Below are positions 6,923-31,059 of a stretch of 31,059 bases of DNA, in pieces. The stretch is from positions 1 through 31,059 of IMG/VR virus record IMGVR_UViG_3300023210_000139. The stretch is one strand, 5' to 3'. How positions within the stretch are numbered: position 1 is the first letter of the stretch; each line of letters opens with the position of its first letter. The DNA comes from a virus. Below the pieces are notes generated by a model that worked only from the letters and a program-made list of their open reading frames with translations, did not search any database and was not told where the DNA came from. Both the position numbers and the translations under genes were made by a program.

Positions 6923-6931
6923 ATATAACGT
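6923..6931 (-). promoter_or_regulatory. Leader motif ACGTTATAT (copy 1 of 4)
   Basis: On the minus strand ACGTTATAT ends 5 bases before the ATG at 6918. Identical motifs precede the genes starting at 10846, 18435 and 22895. It follows the terminator at 6963-6996, so this gap may contain a promoter; the motif could be a promoter part, an operator or a translation-initiation leader. Confidence 0.5.
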
Positions 6932-10861: not shown

Positions 10862-10870
10862 ATATAACGT
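10862..10870 (-). promoter_or_regulatory. Leader motif ACGTTATAT (copy 2 of 4)
   Basis: ACGTTATAT on the minus strand ends 16 bases before the protease ATG at 10846, in the 30-base gap after the tape measure gene. It is the same motif as at 6923, 18454 and 22900, again exactly in front of a gene. Confidence 0.5.
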
Positions 10871-18453: not shown

Positions 18454-18462
18454 ATATAACGT
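18454..18462 (-). promoter_or_regulatory. Leader motif ACGTTATAT (copy 3 of 4)
   Basis: ACGTTATAT on the minus strand, preceded by AATAAA as in the copy at 22900, ends 19 bases before ATG 18435. The gap between the terminator at 18493 and this gene holds no other feature, so a promoter or leader element for the tail transcript is the best guess. Confidence 0.5.
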
Positions 18463-18492: not shown

Positions 18493-18524
18493 AAAAAAGG
18501 GCCAACCTTTTAGGGCCGCCCTTT
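18493..18524 (-). terminator. Rho-independent terminator
   Basis: In the minus transcript AAAGGGC (18518-18524) pairs with GCCCTTT (18496-18502) around a 15-base loop and runs into U's (18493-18498). The same AAGGGC/GCCCTT stem with a 15-base loop forms the terminator at 29459-29491. It ends the short unit driven by the promoter block at 18961-19010 and containing only the 89- and 41-residue genes. Confidence 0.8.
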
Positions 18525-18542
18525 ATAATTTATTATTTAATT

Positions 18543-18668
18543 TTAGATCATACTTGCCTCAAAGCAAGTTCCTGAGCATACACCCTTATCGGTGTCCATT
18601 GGCGTGCCGCATTCCGAGCATTCAAATTCCTTCTGCTCGTGCGGGTTTAAACAGTCATACCAATCCAT
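18543..18668 (-). CDS. Small zinc-ribbon-like protein, 41 aa
   Basis: ATG 18668-18666 overlaps the TAA of the 89-residue gene by one base (TAATG). The peptide has CSEC at 17-20 and CSGTC at 31-35, four Cys in CxxC...CxxxC spacing with an acidic N-terminal segment (MDWYDCLNPHEQKEFE), so one zinc site is likely. It forms a two-gene unit with its upstream partner between a promoter block and a terminator. Small zinc-ribbon proteins of this kind often bind a host polymerase or nucleic acid, but nothing specific is visible here. Confidence 0.65.
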   Translation of the reverse strand: MDWYDCLNPHEQKEFECSECGTPMDTDKGVCSGTCFEASMI

Positions 18669-18937
18669 TACACACATTCTTTTATTGAGTCCTCTAGGCG
18701 CTCCTGTAAGTACGCGTTATGCGATGCGTGTCCGGTTCGTACTATACTAACCCAAGTTGAGAGGTCCCGGTGTAAATTTATAATATCAAATACTAGGGTC
18801 CCTTGAGGGTGCTCAACATATAGTTCTCCGTCCTCCTGATGTAGTGAGTAAGTCTCGCCTACATAAACATTTCTTGCCTGTTCCTTTAGGGCCCATATTT
18901 CGGCCTCGTGCTTTTTAATCAATTGTGCTTTAGTCAT
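18668..18937 (-). CDS. Hypothetical protein, 89 aa
   Basis: An N-terminal helix rich in Lys/Glu/Ala (MTKAQLIKKHEAEIWALKEQ) is followed by a small beta segment (ETYSLHQEDGELYVEHPQG) and a His-containing helix (LHRDLSTWVSIVRTGHASHN). No known family is recognised. It is the first gene after the promoter/operator block at 18961-19010 and is cotranscribed with the zinc-ribbon peptide. The isolation of this pair from the tail operon by a terminator suggests timing different from structural genes, perhaps early or middle expression. Confidence 0.6.
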   Translation of the reverse strand: MTKAQLIKKHEAEIWALKEQARNVYVGETYSLHQEDGELYVEHPQGTLVFDIINLHRDLSTWVSIVRTGHASHNAYLQERLEDSIKECV

Positions 18938-18960: not shown

Positions 18961-19010
18961 AATATACGGCAATATATACTTACTTTACGATATACACAAA
19001 TGTTTATAAC
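18961..19010 (-). promoter_or_regulatory. Promoter/operator block B
   Basis: On the minus strand TTATAAACATTTGTGTATAT is followed after a 13-base interval by TATATTGC and then GTATATTAAT, with an A-rich leader of about 30 bases to ATG 18937. An almost identical block is at 26391-26440. TTTG followed 19-20 bases later by TATATTGC resembles the Bacteroidetes -33 TTG / -7 TAnnTTTG promoter. The conserved 19-base core (18991-19009) extends beyond what a promoter needs and may also bind a regulator or DnaA-like protein. Confidence 0.65.
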
Positions 19011-20523: not shown

Positions 20524-21201
20524 TTATCTATGCCAGGAGTCGTCTGAATTTTTACCCGGCTCATTTAGTAGTAAACAGTCCGGGCGGTAAATATCTTTAA
20601 CCTCCATTGACGGCTCCCACGTTGAAAGCCTATTGTCTTGCGGCTCCTTTATTATAATACCCTTTTTAATGTCTTCTAAGGCCTTCTCCATAAGCCTAAC
20701 CCCCATAGGTTGCAGTTCTTGTCTCCATAGCCTAGAGGCCGCCTTTCCTGAACTCATAGATAGCAATTCCGGTTGTATAAAACAAAACTCTTGATATGCA
20801 ATATCGCCCCTATCTATTCCGGCGTTTAACCAAAAGACCGTCCCCCCGGTAATAGCCTCTTTCATTTTGATTGCCCACTCAATTGAGGCCCTTCCTCTAT
20901 GCCTAGGCAAAAGGCTCGGATGATATCCTATCCAACCCAGTCTTGGAATGTAACGGGTTTTCTTTCCTATATAATCAAAACTATGCGCGGTTATACCAAG
21001 GTCCACGTTTTTAGGCATCAGGTCCGCGGATAGAGCCCCGGACGTAACCGTTGGGATATTCCACCTTTTAGCGATAGGAGAAATATATTTATCCCCAAAC
21101 GGATAACATACGCCAACAACCTCAACCCCCTCCATTTTAATACATAATTCTAGTATTTCAGCACCATAATATTTTTGACCGCTAATAAAAACTCTAAGCA
21201 T
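20524..21201 (-). CDS. Formyltransferase-fold protein (formyl-THF type)
   Basis: 225 residues of the methionyl-tRNA formyltransferase / formyl-THF hydrolase fold. The core motif is IGYHPSLLPRHRGRASIEW (91-109), then GGTVFWLNAGIDRGDIAYQE (119-138). By comparison with Fmt (N106, H108, D144) His94 and Asp130 are kept, but the Asn position is Gly92. The HPSLLPRHRG version is closer to the hydrolase domain of 10-formyl-THF dehydrogenase, which also lacks that Asn. There is no C-terminal Fmt tRNA-binding domain. It is 2 bases behind the GNAT stop and 16 bases before terS, so it belongs to a cassette with ABC/GNAT and ParB-like genes. I infer that it formylates or supplies a one-carbon unit to a base or nucleotide; free formyl-THF hydrolysis is possible. 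Confidence 0.75.
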   Translation of the reverse strand: MLRVFISGQKYYGAEILELCIKMEGVEVVGVCYPFGDKYISPIAKRWNIPTVTSGALSADLMPKNVDLGITAHSFDYIGKKTRYIPRLGWIGYHPSLLPRHRGRASIEWAIKMKEAITGGTVFWLNAGIDRGDIAYQEFCFIQPELLSMSSGKAASRLWRQELQPMGVRLMEKALEDIKKGIIIKEPQDNRLSTWEPSMEVKDIYRPDCLLLNEPGKNSDDSWHR

Positions 21202-21203
21202 AT

Positions 21204-21743
21204 TTATTCATTTTTATTCCCTATATATTTAAAACCTTGGACGGCCCTAAAATGTCCGCCAAATCCTCCACTAATTCCTTTCTCTCCCCTTTTTATTGAC
21301 GCCCCAACTATTGACTTCTGGGATTGTTTTTTATTACCGCCAAATAATACTTGGCTTTTAAGTACCCAGTTCTTACTCCTATTTAGAAACCCTATTAACT
21401 GAGGATGGCTAGTGTGAAATATAGTGGGCAACTTGTGGCCTTTTCGGCCGTTCCCCTGTTTGTGATATTCCATAACTAACTCTAAAAATTTCGTTCCAAC
21501 TCCGGCACCTTGCCACTCAGGCATTACAACTAATCTTGTCGCCCTATATGCTCCGGCAGTAAACATCGGGCAAACGGCGAGGTGTGATACTAATTCTCCG
21601 TCAACTGTGCCAATAAAATATTCAGCGGCCGGCGGAAAGTTTAGATCTAAATAATAATGCTCTTTAAAATACTTCCAGTAACTGCGGTTGACCTTCCAAA
21701 CATCCAGTTTGATTCTTGGCCGTTCTCCAATATCGTTTTTTTT
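21204..21743 (-). CDS. GNAT acyltransferase, C-terminal half of a frameshifted ABC-GNAT protein
   Basis: The GNAT frame is open from 21743 and carries 59 codons upstream of its only ATG (21566; MFTAGAYR). These 59 codons read sensibly: GERPRIKLDVWKVNRSYWKY, LNFPPAAEYFIGTVDGELVS. The core RLVVMPEWQGAGVGTKFLEL contains the acyl-CoA binding motif Q-G-A-G-V-G, and FHTSHPQLIGFLNRSKNW follows. A TAA sits exactly at the A-run edge (21744-21746), so this part can only be joined from the ABC gene by a -1 shift in the A10 tract at 21736-21745. Joined product: 379 residues. Mu Mom, a DNA-modifying enzyme, has the GNAT fold, and this could be a relative (inference). If it starts at 21566, the first beta strands of GNAT would be missing. 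Confidence 0.75.
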   Translation of the reverse strand, partial: KKNDIGERPRIKLDVWKVNRSYWKYFKEHYYLDLNFPPAAEYFIGTVDGELVSHLAVCPMFTAGAYRATRLVVMPEWQGAGVGTKFLELVMEYHKQGNGRKGHKLPTIFHTSHPQLIGFLNRSKNWVLKSQVLFGGNKKQSQKSIVGASIKRGEKGISGGFGGHFRAVQGFKYIGNKNE

Positions 21744-22342
21744 TTAACCTCCCCTGAGGCAGTATCTAAAACCCAATCAGGTTGGACCCATTCAAGAATA
21801 TCATAGTGGCAAGACAATAATATTATTTGCCTGTCCTTTGTTCTCCTGAACGCTTTTGAAAATGCAAGCGCCCCGATTTTTGCTATCTGTCTATCGACTA
21901 CCGATGTAAACTCATCAACAACGGTTTGGCTATCGCCGTCCGATATTATACGAGCAAGCCCGGCCCTGAATTGTTGCCCATTACTAAGCGCGTGGAACGG
22001 CCTCAACCAACTAGGGACATCGCCTAGGCCAACGCTCGCCAGTAGTCCCGTAACGGTGTTAAAGTCCCCGTCCGGAGATATATCATCAACAATAGGGATA
22101 TCCTTACTCCAACCCTTATATAAGTCCGCAATCTTACCGCCGCCAAATAACTGTTTTCCAATCGATGTTTTACCTGAACCACTAGGCCCAACTATTACTC
22201 CTATCTTCCAGTCGTCGCCCTCTACCGGGACATCAATATCAAGATTAAATTCGTCGCCCCTTTCAGCATTAAACAAAGACTTTACTCTTGCGGCCCGGTA
22301 ACTATTAAAATTATCGGTTTTATTTCTGACGTTTACTTTCAT
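21647..22342 (-). CDS. Soluble ABC-type ATPase, N-terminal half of a frameshifted ABC-GNAT protein
   Basis: 231 residues in this frame. Walker A GPSGSGKTS (52-60), signature LSNGQ (119-123), Walker B with VVDE (141-144), D-loop SVVD (147-150) and switch His179 in LLSCHY make a complete nucleotide-binding domain. No membrane segment is present, so it is not a transporter by itself; ABC domains of this sort work in DNA repair, modification or mechanics. After VLDTASGEVKKK the frame continues for only 29 unlike residues (TILENGQESNWMFGRS...) and stops, while the -1 frame continues into the GNAT domain. I therefore regard residues from Thr203 onward as out of frame. It follows the ParB-like gene by 10 bases. 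Confidence 0.85.
   Translation of the reverse strand: MKVNVRNKTDNFNSYRAARVKSLFNAERGDEFNLDIDVPVEGDDWKIGVIVGPSGSGKTSIGKQLFGGGKIADLYKGWSKDIPIVDDISPDGDFNTVTGLLASVGLGDVPSWLRPFHALSNGQQFRAGLARIISDGDSQTVVDEFTSVVDRQIAKIGALAFSKAFRRTKDRQIILLSCHYDILEWVQPDWVLDTASGEVKKKTILENGQESNWMFGRSTAVTGSILKSIII
21736..21745 (-). other. A10 run joining ABC and GNAT frames (-1 shift or sequencing indel)
   Basis: The minus strand reads GTT AAA AAA AAA ACG in the ABC frame, ten A's in all. A -1 slip gives AAA AAC GAT ATT and enters the GNAT frame, which is closed by TAA just upstream. Candidates: programmed -1 ribosomal or RNA polymerase slippage on A AAA AAA, or a one-base deletion in a homopolymer of this assembly (A11 would fuse the genes). 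Both explanations leave ABC and GNAT as parts of one protein. Confidence 0.75.
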
Positions 22343-22899: not shown

Positions 22900-22908
22900 A
22901 TATAACGT
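22900..22908 (-). promoter_or_regulatory. Leader motif ACGTTATAT (copy 4 of 4)
   Basis: The minus strand reads AATAAAACGTTATATAATT directly before ATG 22895, the motif ending 5 bases upstream. It is in the 23-base gap after the DnaA-domain gene, the likely start of the modification/packaging unit. Confidence 0.5.
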
Positions 22909-22918
22909 TTTATTTTTT

Positions 22919-23377
22919 TTAGTTTGCGAATTCCTCTAGGCTATACTTTTCGACTGGGTTAGCCTCCATATCAGTAAGGACGTCCTCATACATAGCAAGC
23001 GACTTTTTATATAGTTCGTCGACATTCTCTTTAGTTAGTAGAGGTACCTTATCTTGGATATACTGCCTTTTCAGGCCGTCGGTCATATACCTAGTACCTC
23101 CCAAAACATCGTTTAAATTACGGGATAATATAGGGTTAAACTTTACGGTAATATCCCAGTTCTTTAAATGGTGTATAACGGTGCAATGCGTCGTCGGCTT
23201 TCCATTTTCGACAAAGTATTCAGCAATAGCAGTTTTAGTCATTCCGAGGTATTTGTGAAACACGAACATTAAAAGCGCCCTCGCCTCTACATAGTCCCGG
23301 CGCCTTGTATTCTTAAAAATATCAAGGCCCGTTATATTCATTAGTTTACGGCTTAAGGCCAGTTGTAATTTTATCAT
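22919..23377 (-). CDS. DnaA domain IV-like DNA-binding protein
   Basis: 152 residues. FKNTRRRDYVEARALLMFVF (21-40), YLGMTKTAIAEYF and TTHCTVIHHLKNW (62-74) copy the C-terminal DnaA signature (R.R.V.ARQ......R......S...IG..FG.RDHSTVIHA) in order and spacing, with THCTVIHH in place of DHSTVLHA. There is no AAA+ ATPase domain, only the box-binding part plus a charged C-terminal helix region. It would bind DnaA-like boxes and act on origin firing or as a repressor. TTATACACA, a match to the DnaA box TTATNCACA, occurs at 30048-30066 region, and close relatives at two promoters. The start overlaps the stop of the exonuclease gene (TAATG). Confidence 0.7.
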   Translation of the reverse strand: MIKLQLALSRKLMNITGLDIFKNTRRRDYVEARALLMFVFHKYLGMTKTAIAEYFVENGKPTTHCTVIHHLKNWDITVKFNPILSRNLNDVLGGTRYMTDGLKRQYIQDKVPLLTKENVDELYKKSLAMYEDVLTDMEANPVEKYSLEEFAN

Positions 23378-26390: not shown

Positions 26391-26440
26391 TAATATGCCG
26401 CAATATACGTTTTTAAAGGATATACACAAATGTTTATAAC
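26391..26440 (-). promoter_or_regulatory. Promoter/operator block A
   Basis: On the minus strand TTATAAACATTTGTGTATAT, then TATATTGC at 26400-26407, then CATATTAATC, with a leader of 29 bases to ATG 26371. This matches block B at 18961-19010 base for base over the 22 bases 26419-26440 and closely in the -7-like part. TTTG to TATATTGC spacing is 19 bases. It drives the ERF/recombination genes. The core 26421-26439 is repeated inverted at 30048-30066. Confidence 0.7.
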
Positions 26441-27057: not shown

Positions 27058-27192
27058 TTAAAATCTTTTAACGTTTATTTTATTCCAGTCCTTGCGGCGT
27101 TTGTCGCACCCGCAATTTGGATTTATTTTTTTCCATATATAGGCTATGCCCGTATATTTAGTTATGTAAAATACTAGGTCTCCGAGTTTCAT
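27058..27192 (-). CDS. Small basic Cys-containing protein, 44 aa
   Basis: ATG 27192-27190 overlaps the TGA of the sigma-like gene (ATGA). The peptide MKLGDLVFYITKYTGIAYIW and then NPNCGCDKRRKDWNKINV has a C-x-C followed by a basic stretch. The NCGCDKRR-type tail is one I associate with small Flavobacterium-phage proteins found near structural and regulatory genes. TAA at 27058-27060 sits just before the next ATG. Coupling and exact fit argue for expression; function unknown. Confidence 0.65.
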   Translation of the reverse strand: MKLGDLVFYITKYTGIAYIWKKINPNCGCDKRRKDWNKINVKRF

Positions 27193-27665
27193 ATTAATGA
27201 TTTTTTAACTTTTTTAATAGTTCGCTTTATTGAGTGATAAGAGATGCCCGTCGACTCTGAAAGTTGGAGCATACTAACGCCTTTAATGCAAACTATATTA
27301 AATATTTTTTTATCGTACCAGTGGAGGTTTTCAATTTTATTTTTTATCTCCTCCGCAATATATATTAGTTCTTGCTCATAGTCATTAGAGGCCTCAAATA
27401 TGCTTTGGCGTTCAATATTTATATACCTTTTACTCTTTCTCTTATGGTCTAAAAATAAGGTTCTTAAAACCTTAAAAACAAAGTAATAATTAACCTCATG
27501 ACTATTGTATAAAATAGATTTATTGCCCTTTAATTCCCAGTCATTTAATTTGATATACATTTCCTGTACAACGTCCTCTGACGTTTCCTTATCGGCACCA
27601 AAAGACCGGACAACATTTATCCAGTCTTGATTTTTTAGGGCTAGTCTTTCTATTAATCTTATCAT
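27189..27665 (-). CDS. Sigma-70-like transcription factor (ECF-type size)
   Basis: I start at ATG 27665, which overlaps the TGA of the preceding gene (ATGA), giving 158 residues; an in-frame ATG 24 bases upstream would overlap that gene further. Residues 25-45 (DKETSEDVVQEMYIKLNDW) resemble region 2.1, LRTLFLDHKRKSKRY is region 2 to 3 linker, and the C-terminal GVSMLQLSESTGISYHSIKR is the region 4 helix-turn-helix. This is the size of a two-domain ECF sigma factor. It may direct late or middle promoters, e.g. the two promoter blocks, by recruiting host RNA polymerase. Promoter linkage is inference. Confidence 0.75.
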   Translation of the reverse strand: MIRLIERLALKNQDWINVVRSFGADKETSEDVVQEMYIKLNDWELKGNKSILYNSHEVNYYFVFKVLRTLFLDHKRKSKRYINIERQSIFEASNDYEQELIYIAEEIKNKIENLHWYDKKIFNIVCIKGVSMLQLSESTGISYHSIKRTIKKVKKSLI

Positions 27666-28510
27666 AATCCACAATGTCCACTGTCGCATTCGTTAAAGTC
27701 ATCATCAAATAATTCTGTTTGTTTAAAACTGTTTTTTATTTGTTTATAGTTAATTCCGTTTTTAAAGGTTCTAACATTATATCCAGTTTCTTGTTCTGCA
27801 TTTATAAACCATTGAAATTTATTTGGGTGCTTATCACTCATCAATTTAAGTAACACTTCGTTTCTATGAAAACATCCTACGCAATTATTCATATAAGCAA
27901 ACCTAACATTTTTATCTTTCCAGTATTTTTCTACTTGGTCTTTATATATATTATCTTTAATTAAAGGGAATACAGGTTTTTGCCATTCTATATCCGCCCA
28001 TTTGTTTTGTGTTTTTCTTTTACCTACAATAGTTTTCATTTCTAAAAAACCATTTTTATTTGTTTTATTCAACATTGTTTTTGCTCTGCTTTGTTCGTTT
28101 GCTCTAAACCCTATACGCATTTTTACAACTTGATTTATTTCTTTATGCCACCAATTAAAAATAGGTTTTAGTTTCATTTCGGTTGTGCAAAATCTTATTG
28201 TTGCATTTGGTAAGTATTTTTTACCATTCCTATCAATAACTTCATCAAAAGTTTTACCAGTAACCCAATCAATTTTAGAGCCTATATACTGTTCTAAGTC
28301 TAACATTGTATATATAATGGTATCTTCTTCTAATGTACCTATAAATTCAGTACCTAACCTATCACTAACTTGCTGTCTTATTTTAGCATCTGGGAACATA
28401 CATTTTTTATCACTTGTTCTAACTAAAGAAAATACATTGTAGTCTGCCGGGTAATTTGCAGCAATATAACTTGACGTTTTTCCACCGCTTAAAGAATTTA
28501 CAGTTTTCAT
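27662..28510 (-). CDS. PAPS reductase-like PP-loop protein
   Basis: 282 residues. PP-loop SLSGGKTSSYIAANY (6-20) with SGGKTS in place of SGGxDS, the PAPS-reductase pattern FCTTEMKLKPIF at 107-118, GFRANEQSRAK at 134-144 and FPLIKDNIYK. Six Cys, 37, 108, 210, 213, 275, 280 (NNCVGCFHRN, ECDSGHCGL), could hold an Fe-S cluster or zinc. It is an adenine-nucleotide alpha hydrolase that may act in sulfur transfer, e.g. on tRNA or DNA (DndC-like) or as a sulfate-assimilation mimic. Base use is strikingly AT-rich (some 60-base lines near 20-30% GC against over 60% in places nearby), unlike neighbours, indicating recent acquisition. It ends in ATGA overlapping the sigma-like gene. Confidence 0.78.
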   Translation of the reverse strand: MKTVNSLSGGKTSSYIAANYPADYNVFSLVRTSDKKCMFPDAKIRQQVSDRLGTEFIGTLEEDTIIYTMLDLEQYIGSKIDWVTGKTFDEVIDRNGKKYLPNATIRFCTTEMKLKPIFNWWHKEINQVVKMRIGFRANEQSRAKTMLNKTNKNGFLEMKTIVGKRKTQNKWADIEWQKPVFPLIKDNIYKDQVEKYWKDKNVRFAYMNNCVGCFHRNEVLLKLMSDKHPNKFQWFINAEQETGYNVRTFKNGINYKQIKNSFKQTELFDDDFNECDSGHCGL

Positions 28511-29429: not shown

Positions 29430-29458
29430 TTGTCCTTTGGTTTTTTTTTGTAATATAT

Positions 29459-29491
29459 AAAAAAAAGGGCAAGTAGTTAATACCGGCCCTT
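29459..29491 (-). terminator. Rho-independent terminator before helicase gene
   Basis: AAGGGC (29486-29491) pairs with GCCCTT (29465-29470) around a 15-base loop and runs into eight U's (29459-29466) in the minus transcript. The same stem and loop length occur at 18493-18524. It lies 10 bases after the 103-residue gene stop. TATATTAC at 29450-29457 right after it may restart transcription for the helicase. Confidence 0.8.
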
Positions 29492-29500
29492 ATTGGCTTT

Positions 29501-29833: not shown

Positions 29834-30004
29834 TTATTGATTGATAAGTTCCTGAATGTTTGCATTAGCGACCTCAAGTCTGGCCACTAAAATTTCAACG
29901 TGTTTTAATAAAAATGCATTTTGTTTTTGCGCCCGTTCTAATTCCTTTTGTAGGCTTTCAATACTGTACTGTTTTACTCGTAATAAATCTGCTTGTCCCG
30001 TCAT
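29834..30004 (-). CDS. Small coiled-coil protein, 56 aa
   Basis: ATG 30004, TAA 29834-29836; too short for the usual length cut-off. The peptide has RVKQYSIESLQKELERAQKQ and NAFLLKHVEILVARLEVANA, an almost unbroken heptad coiled coil ending NIQELINQ. It lies immediately after the promoter-like boxes at 30025-30066 and terminator 30066-30098, as the first gene of that unit, with the 103-residue gene following. A 65-residue frame on the opposite strand is its antisense shadow. Function unknown; probably a dimeric adaptor. Confidence 0.6.
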   Translation of the reverse strand: MTGQADLLRVKQYSIESLQKELERAQKQNAFLLKHVEILVARLEVANANIQELINQ

Positions 30005-30024: not shown

Positions 30025-30066
30025 CTAATATACAATTTTATTTTAATTTATAAACTTTTGTGTATA
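30025..30066. promoter_or_regulatory. Promoter-like box and inverted 19-base element C
   Basis: TATATTAG on the minus strand at 30025-30032, 21 bases before ATG 30004, is a -7-like box. Upstream, plus strand TTATAAACTTTTGTGTATA (30048-30066) matches the 19-base core of blocks A and B with one mismatch but in inverted orientation. On the minus strand it contains TTATACACA, a full match to the DnaA box TTATNCACA. Inverted orientation suggests a binding site rather than a plain promoter part. Confidence 0.6.
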
Positions 30067-30098
30067 AAAAAAAGACGCTATAATAAAATAACGCCTTT
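30066..30098 (-). terminator. Rho-independent terminator after ninG
   Basis: In the minus transcript an 11-base stem (30088-30098 with 30071-30081, two G-U pairs), 6-base loop, is followed by eight U's (30066-30073). Wobble pairs form only in the minus transcript. It lies 47 bases after the NinG stop and isolates the first early unit (86-residue gene plus ninG). Confidence 0.8.
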
Positions 30099-30863: not shown

Positions 30864-31059
30864 TTCATCATATATATATAATATCATATAAGAGATATAT
30901 TAAAATATATCTATATAATATCATATATATAGGATATCATATATATAGGATATCATATATATAGGATATCATATAATATACTAAAAGGTTTCAATTAAAA
31001 AAATAAAGTTATGAACAGTTTATTTACTTTTCCAAGTAGACATCATTTTTTCTCCTGTT
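30864..31059. repeat. Right copy of end-redundant sequence (three 16-bp units)
   Basis: 196 bases matching 1-180, with the 16-base unit present three times (30924-30939, 30940-30955, 30956-30971) instead of two. Apart from this, the two copies agree base for base. It shows that the contig closes on itself, and that repeat number is variable in the population or was mis-assembled. Confidence 0.9.
31020..31059 (-). CDS. Partial duplicate of the holin-like gene (3' end)
   Basis: The last 40 bases repeat 141-180, the final codons of the holin-like gene. It is the same gene seen through the overlap of the circular contig, not a second gene. Confidence 0.9.
   Translation of the reverse strand, partial: TGEKMMSTWKSK

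Follow-up and report, generated by a model that had tools for sequence, protein, structure and literature searches.

A 20-bp dyad repeated over three putative phage promoters is a candidate operator for a phage-encoded DnaA domain IV-like protein

The closest described systems are the DnaA box with the DnaA domain that reads it, the operators of lambda Cro/CI type, and the promoters of Bacteroidetes. The DnaA box has the consensus TTWTNCACA, and the residues of DnaA which contact it, through domain IV (PF08299; PDB 1j1v), are R399, P423, D433, H434, T435 and H439 (PMC7561715). Operators of the Cro/CI type are symmetric sites placed over promoter boxes at several promoters of one genome, and Bacteroidetes promoters carry TTTG at -33 and TAnnTTTG at -7, with the SM5 box TAnnTTGY of F. 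psychrophilum mapped at -12 to -5 (PMC9723704). The phage element described here has nine-base half-sites which resemble the DnaA box, and the phage encodes a protein with the fold and conserved DNA-contact residues of domain IV; like a Cro/CI operator it is a symmetric site over the boxes of several promoters, with a regulator that is likely self-controlled, and its three copies lie on putative promoters of the Bacteroidetes type. It differs from these systems in that the phage boxes, at promoters, oppose one another in a dyad centred on 2 bp and are relaxed at position 6 (C), in that the phage protein has no AAA+ domain, in that there is a single site per promoter and the candidate regulator has a DnaA-type rather than a Cro/CI-type HTH, and in that the promoter boxes are supplemented by the 20-bp dyad.

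The window analysed was the whole 31,059-base stretch of viral DNA, from a phage of flavobacterial type. Sequence comparison bore out the initial annotation in that a 22-nt block, GATATACACAAATGTTTATAAC, is present in two identical copies at 18989-19010 and 26419-26440. There is a third copy at 30048-30067, in which 2 of 20 positions are changed relative to the other two, with one mismatch within the 19-nt core (30048-30066). When the element pattern was searched with up to three mismatches there were 3 matches in the window versus none in 100 dinucleotide-preserving shuffles, and a search of the entire 31,059-base record gave no fourth copy. In form the element is a 20-bp dyad of imperfect symmetry (TTATAmAC-wwww-GTkTATAA), and in both 20-mers, TTATAAACATTTGTGTATAT (two copies) and TTATAAACTTTTGTGTATAA, 7 of 10 pairs are complementary about a centre between positions 10 and 11. 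This symmetry, and with it the equivalence of the third copy to the other two, had been overlooked: the core had been called inverted at 30048-30066 with one mismatch, and although the copy and its mismatch stand, the strand of a dyad carries little meaning.

The features around the three sites, where all genes treated are on the minus strand, are collected in Table 1. Each copy of the dyad covers the -33 region of a Bacteroidetes-type putative promoter. The layout is TTTG-N20-TATATTGC at site 1 and TTTG-N19-TATATTGC at site 2, and since TATATTGC fits the SM5 box at its mapped position the dyad is placed over the -33 region; site 3, with TATATTAG at -7 and only TTTA at -33, is the weakest of the three. 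We infer that the three sites lie on active promoters. The earlier description of the element as overlapping a -33 TTTG and as longer than a promoter requires was correct on both counts.

Table 1. Coordinates of the three dyads, their promoter boxes and associated features of the window
Feature	Position	Strand	Remarks
Site 1, dyad TTATAAACATTTGTGTATAT	18990..19009	minus	covers -33 TTTG (18997-19000); 9 nt after TerL gene
Site 1 putative promoter, -7 box TATATTGC	18969..18976	minus	TAnnTTGY type; dyad centre 23 nt upstream
Site 2, dyad as site 1	26420..26439	minus	over -33 of putative promoter of operon 26371 to 19019
Site 2 putative promoter, -7 box TATATTGC	26400..26407	minus	dyad centre 22 nt upstream
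Site 3, dyad TTATACACAAAAGTTTATAA (minus-strand reading)	30048..30067	undirected (.)	over -33 region, putative promoter of gene 29834-30004
Site 3 putative promoter, -7 box TATATTAG	30025..30032	minus	dyad centre 25 nt upstream
Terminator-like intrinsic hairpin	30071..30098	minus	directly upstream of site 3; ends NinG unit
Terminator-like intrinsic hairpin	18503..18518	minus	ends site 1 unit, ahead of structural genes
152-aa DnaA domain IV-like protein	22919..23377	minus	candidate dyad-binding regulator; inside site 2 operon
Phage sigma factor gene	27189..27689	minus	PHROG 1740, 6.4e-7; disfavoured as dyad binder

Each site heads a non-structural transcription unit. Site 1, in the 81-nt gap after TerL, precedes a short unit (18937-18668 and a 41-aa ORF) closed by a terminator-like hairpin, while site 2, in a 72-nt gap ahead of 26371, precedes a long operon with ERF, exonuclease, DnaA-like, ParB-like, TerS and TerL genes, so that the block does lie upstream of a small unit at site 1 but the description of two small operons fails at site 2, whose unit includes the DnaA-like gene itself. 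The NinG unit is closed by the terminator-like hairpin immediately before site 3, so that site 3 begins a new transcription unit, which starts at 30004 and includes helicase-like and sigma genes.

Other features of the window were also recorded. The 41-aa ORF (minus strand, 18543-18668), directly after gene 18668-18937, is cysteine-rich and zinc-ribbon-like and falls under the cut-off of the ORF list. Just before the helicase-like gene (minus strand, 29430-29500) a terminator-like hairpin and its T run precede a -7-like TATATTAC, and relatives are similarly arranged. Formyltransferase-like, GNAT-like and ABC-ATPase-like genes occupy 20524-22342, between the ParB-like gene and TerS. The two ends (1 to about 196 and about 30864-31059) apparently have the same sequence of repeated GATATCATATATATAG units with a one-unit difference; this is likely a terminal repeat, marking the genome as complete, and is a candidate replication origin.

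To follow the element beyond the window the wider family was gathered through TerL and helicase searches. In the closest relative (contig 3300002153_000013, handled as L004/L030), whose DnaA-like protein is 95% identical, all three sites are kept and site 1 is identical. A more distant relative with 60-87% protein identity, represented by L031 and L111 (two contigs of one metagenome which are probably one phage), has all three sites at syntenic positions with diverged flanks: TTATAAACATTTGTATATAT at site 1 (at least 18/20 positions kept in L031), and, in L111, TTATAAACATTTGTTTATAT at site 2 and TTATGCACAAAAGTGAATAA at site 3. The motif search in related phages which had been suggested thus shows that the element is conserved, being repeated at three promoters of one genome and held in position in another. 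The equivalent of site 3 in L114 is TTATGCACAATTGTTTGTAA. In still more distant relatives the position after TerL often holds a different, lineage-specific dyad (GTTATTAAAAANTTTTGATAAC, TTTATTAACTTTTGTTTATAAC or TTTACAAANTTGTAAA), and these dyads are mostly repeated within their genome, over a -33 or a -7 box.

In relatives the spacing between dyad centre and -7 box clusters at 22-25 nt; a second class, spaced by exactly 7 nt, overlaps the -7 box. Dyads of at least 7 pairs at an offset of 21-26 were present at 23% of 195 non-redundant putative family promoters, compared with a mean of 8% and a maximum of 13% in control windows. Across the analyses the site sets were partly hand-picked and partly related by descent, and P values are hence optimistic. 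Taken with the 7 of 10 pairs in the element itself, this enrichment at the equivalent promoter position puts the two-fold symmetry beyond chance. Cultured control phages gave no dyad excess (8% vs 12% in control windows). No dyads were seen in some distant DnaA-positive relatives, and none that were clear in cultured phages with distant DnaA-type HTH proteins (mumin9-1, Harreka_1, phi19:3).

We also searched 2.9 million viral contigs for exact 18-mer matches, and besides the sister phage most matches were in coding sequence; the matches in L008-L025 were rejected as intergenic copies because the opposite strand looks like a coding frame. L104 and L129 were rejected as DnaA-less controls since both carry divergent DnaA-type proteins missed by tblastn (L104 7867-8310; L129 13668-14171), one without the DHATILH signature (EATILNS) and the other with KDHTTVLY. 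Relatives truly without the DnaA-like gene (L162, L171, L181, L182, L187 and L189) are too few and too distant for a clean control, and the DnaA-less pool of 7 usable promoters also included L168 and L173, for which gene status was unchecked.

A dyad which lies over the -33 or -7 box, is lineage-specific and is repeated within the genome fits a repressor operator rather than an extended promoter or a target of a sigma factor, and centres 22-25 or 7 nt upstream of the -7 box are occlusion positions. The element is probably an operator for some phage or host regulator. Our main reading is that it is a symmetric operator for a dimeric phage regulator, most likely the DnaA-like protein, which would repress the three promoters; we give this reading a probability of about 0.47.

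The phage-encoded DnaA domain IV protein named in the initial annotation proved to be a genuine homologue. The 152-aa protein matches PF08299 (Bac_DnaA_C; 1.7e-7, 31.6 bits against a cut-off of 31.5) and the PDB profiles 1l8q (4.8e-8) and 1j1v (2.9e-4), which are DnaA of A. aeolicus and E. coli, and its AlphaFold2 model (pLDDT 90.8) matched 1j1v in a VIA fold comparison with Z 10.9 over 91 residues and rmsd 2.2. The protein contains only domain IV and a helical C-terminus, with no AAA+ domain III. Across the family R25, R33 and H64 are invariant and T66 and H69 near-invariant; by manual reading of the alignment these correspond to E. coli R399, R407, H434, T436 and H439, among which R399, H434 and H439 are DnaA-box contacts (PMC7561715). 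Sequence, fold and DNA-contact residues thus agree on membership of domain IV. The protein is fast-evolving, and in most relatives its gene lies between the exonuclease and ParB-like genes. Bacterial genomes scanned with a single-protein query returned no relative, and the literature searched held no account of regulation by phage DnaA domain IV proteins.

We tentatively regard this protein as the one which binds the dyad. The half-sites of dyads chosen by symmetry matched TTWTNCACA at 6.2 of 8 positions, versus 3.9 of 8 in arm-permuted controls. A Mantel test of motif distance against protein distance did not single out the DnaA-like protein (0.34): TerS (0.64), TerL (0.48), p136 (0.47) and p71 (0.44) correlated as well, and with correlations to many phage proteins co-variation does not pick out one of them. 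Also speaking against the DnaA-like protein, perfect DnaA boxes show no enrichment in the family (counts below), and the cultured phages with distant DnaA-type proteins have no clear dyads. Recombination within the family offers a contrast. L034/L036 have TerL 88%, TerS 79% and ParB 73% identical to the window; their DnaA-like protein is just 33% identical and their dyad is a different one, whereas L031, with TerL 87%, TerS 69%, ParB 43% and DnaA-like 59%, carries nearly the same dyad. TerS, TerL and ParB thereby become less likely binders, as L034/L036 share them at least as closely as L031 yet differ in the dyad; no other gene is excluded by the contrast.

That leaves room for another phage regulator encoded in the left half, either the conserved 71-aa or 136-aa protein, with the motif correlations given above, or an unrecognised small HTH protein. 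We consider this unlikely, since neither conserved protein matched a DNA-binding family in Pfam or PHROGs, and in L114 and L119, on the evidence of one site each, p71/p136 are close to those of the window (58-71%) yet the dyads are more divergent.

It is a good deal less probable still that the dyads are bound by host DnaA, by which the phage promoters would sense the replication state of the host. The inverted copy had been noted to match the DnaA box, and site 3 does hold a perfect box, the only TTATNCACA in the whole window, as TTATACACA; perfect boxes are also present at site 3 in L111 and L114, and bacterial DnaA is able to regulate transcription (PMC6015884). The dyad sequence, however, varies by phage clade, its commonest form in the family being TTATYAAAA without the CACA part, and the intergenic DNA of the family shows no enrichment of perfect TTATNCACA (3, versus a mean of 2.1 for permuted boxes). 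Nor is DnaA known commonly to use inverted paired boxes around a 2-bp centre.

Equally improbable is that the element is an extended -33 promoter sequence read by a host sigma or by the sigma factor which the phage encodes, for although TTTG is covered and the spacing to the -7 box is near-fixed in the window, such a sequence does not account for the dyad symmetry, for the second class of dyads over the -7 box or for a register which varies between clades (22 to 25), and the phage sigma factor has a better candidate target in CGTTATA. This sequence (core CGTTA), which resembles ECF-type -10 boxes, was found ahead of the first structural gene in 52 of the relatives' 65 upstream regions, versus 2.7 expected, and is a candidate late promoter element for the sigma factor; given this separate element before structural genes, the clade-dependent register and the dyads that may cover -7, a sigma-factor role for the dyad is unlikely. 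In the window a CGTTATAT box lies a few bases before gene starts on the minus strand at 18455-18461, 22901-22907, 10863-10869 and 6924-6930.

Under the operator reading with the DnaA-like protein as regulator, a phage-encoded dimer would bind the dyad over the -33 box of three host-type promoters which drive replication, recombination and packaging units, and each DnaA-like domain would recognise one of the inverted, relaxed DnaA boxes (TTATNMACW). Bound at a site centred near -35 (or, in the other class, near -19) the dimer would block sigma contact and so repress. Since the site 2 operon contains the DnaA-like gene, the protein would limit its own expression (negative autoregulation) and turn down the replication and packaging units, and the structural genes would meanwhile be read from separate late promoters marked by CGTTATA. 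We infer binding, dimerisation and repression, and activation rather than repression by the dyad-binding protein is possible.

With somewhat greater hesitation the proposal may be extended to the family: a free-standing DnaA domain IV without AAA+ might serve as master regulator of transcription throughout a large flavobacterial phage family, acting on paired inverted DnaA-like boxes over -33 or -7, with an operator that drifts clade by clade with the protein. The element provides a testable regulator-operator pair for a widespread uncultured phage group. If the DnaA-like protein is the binder, the DNA-reading domain of an initiator would have been reused as a stand-alone regulator with altered specificity, and the family would offer a natural series of operator variants in which to study changes in DnaA-box recognition.
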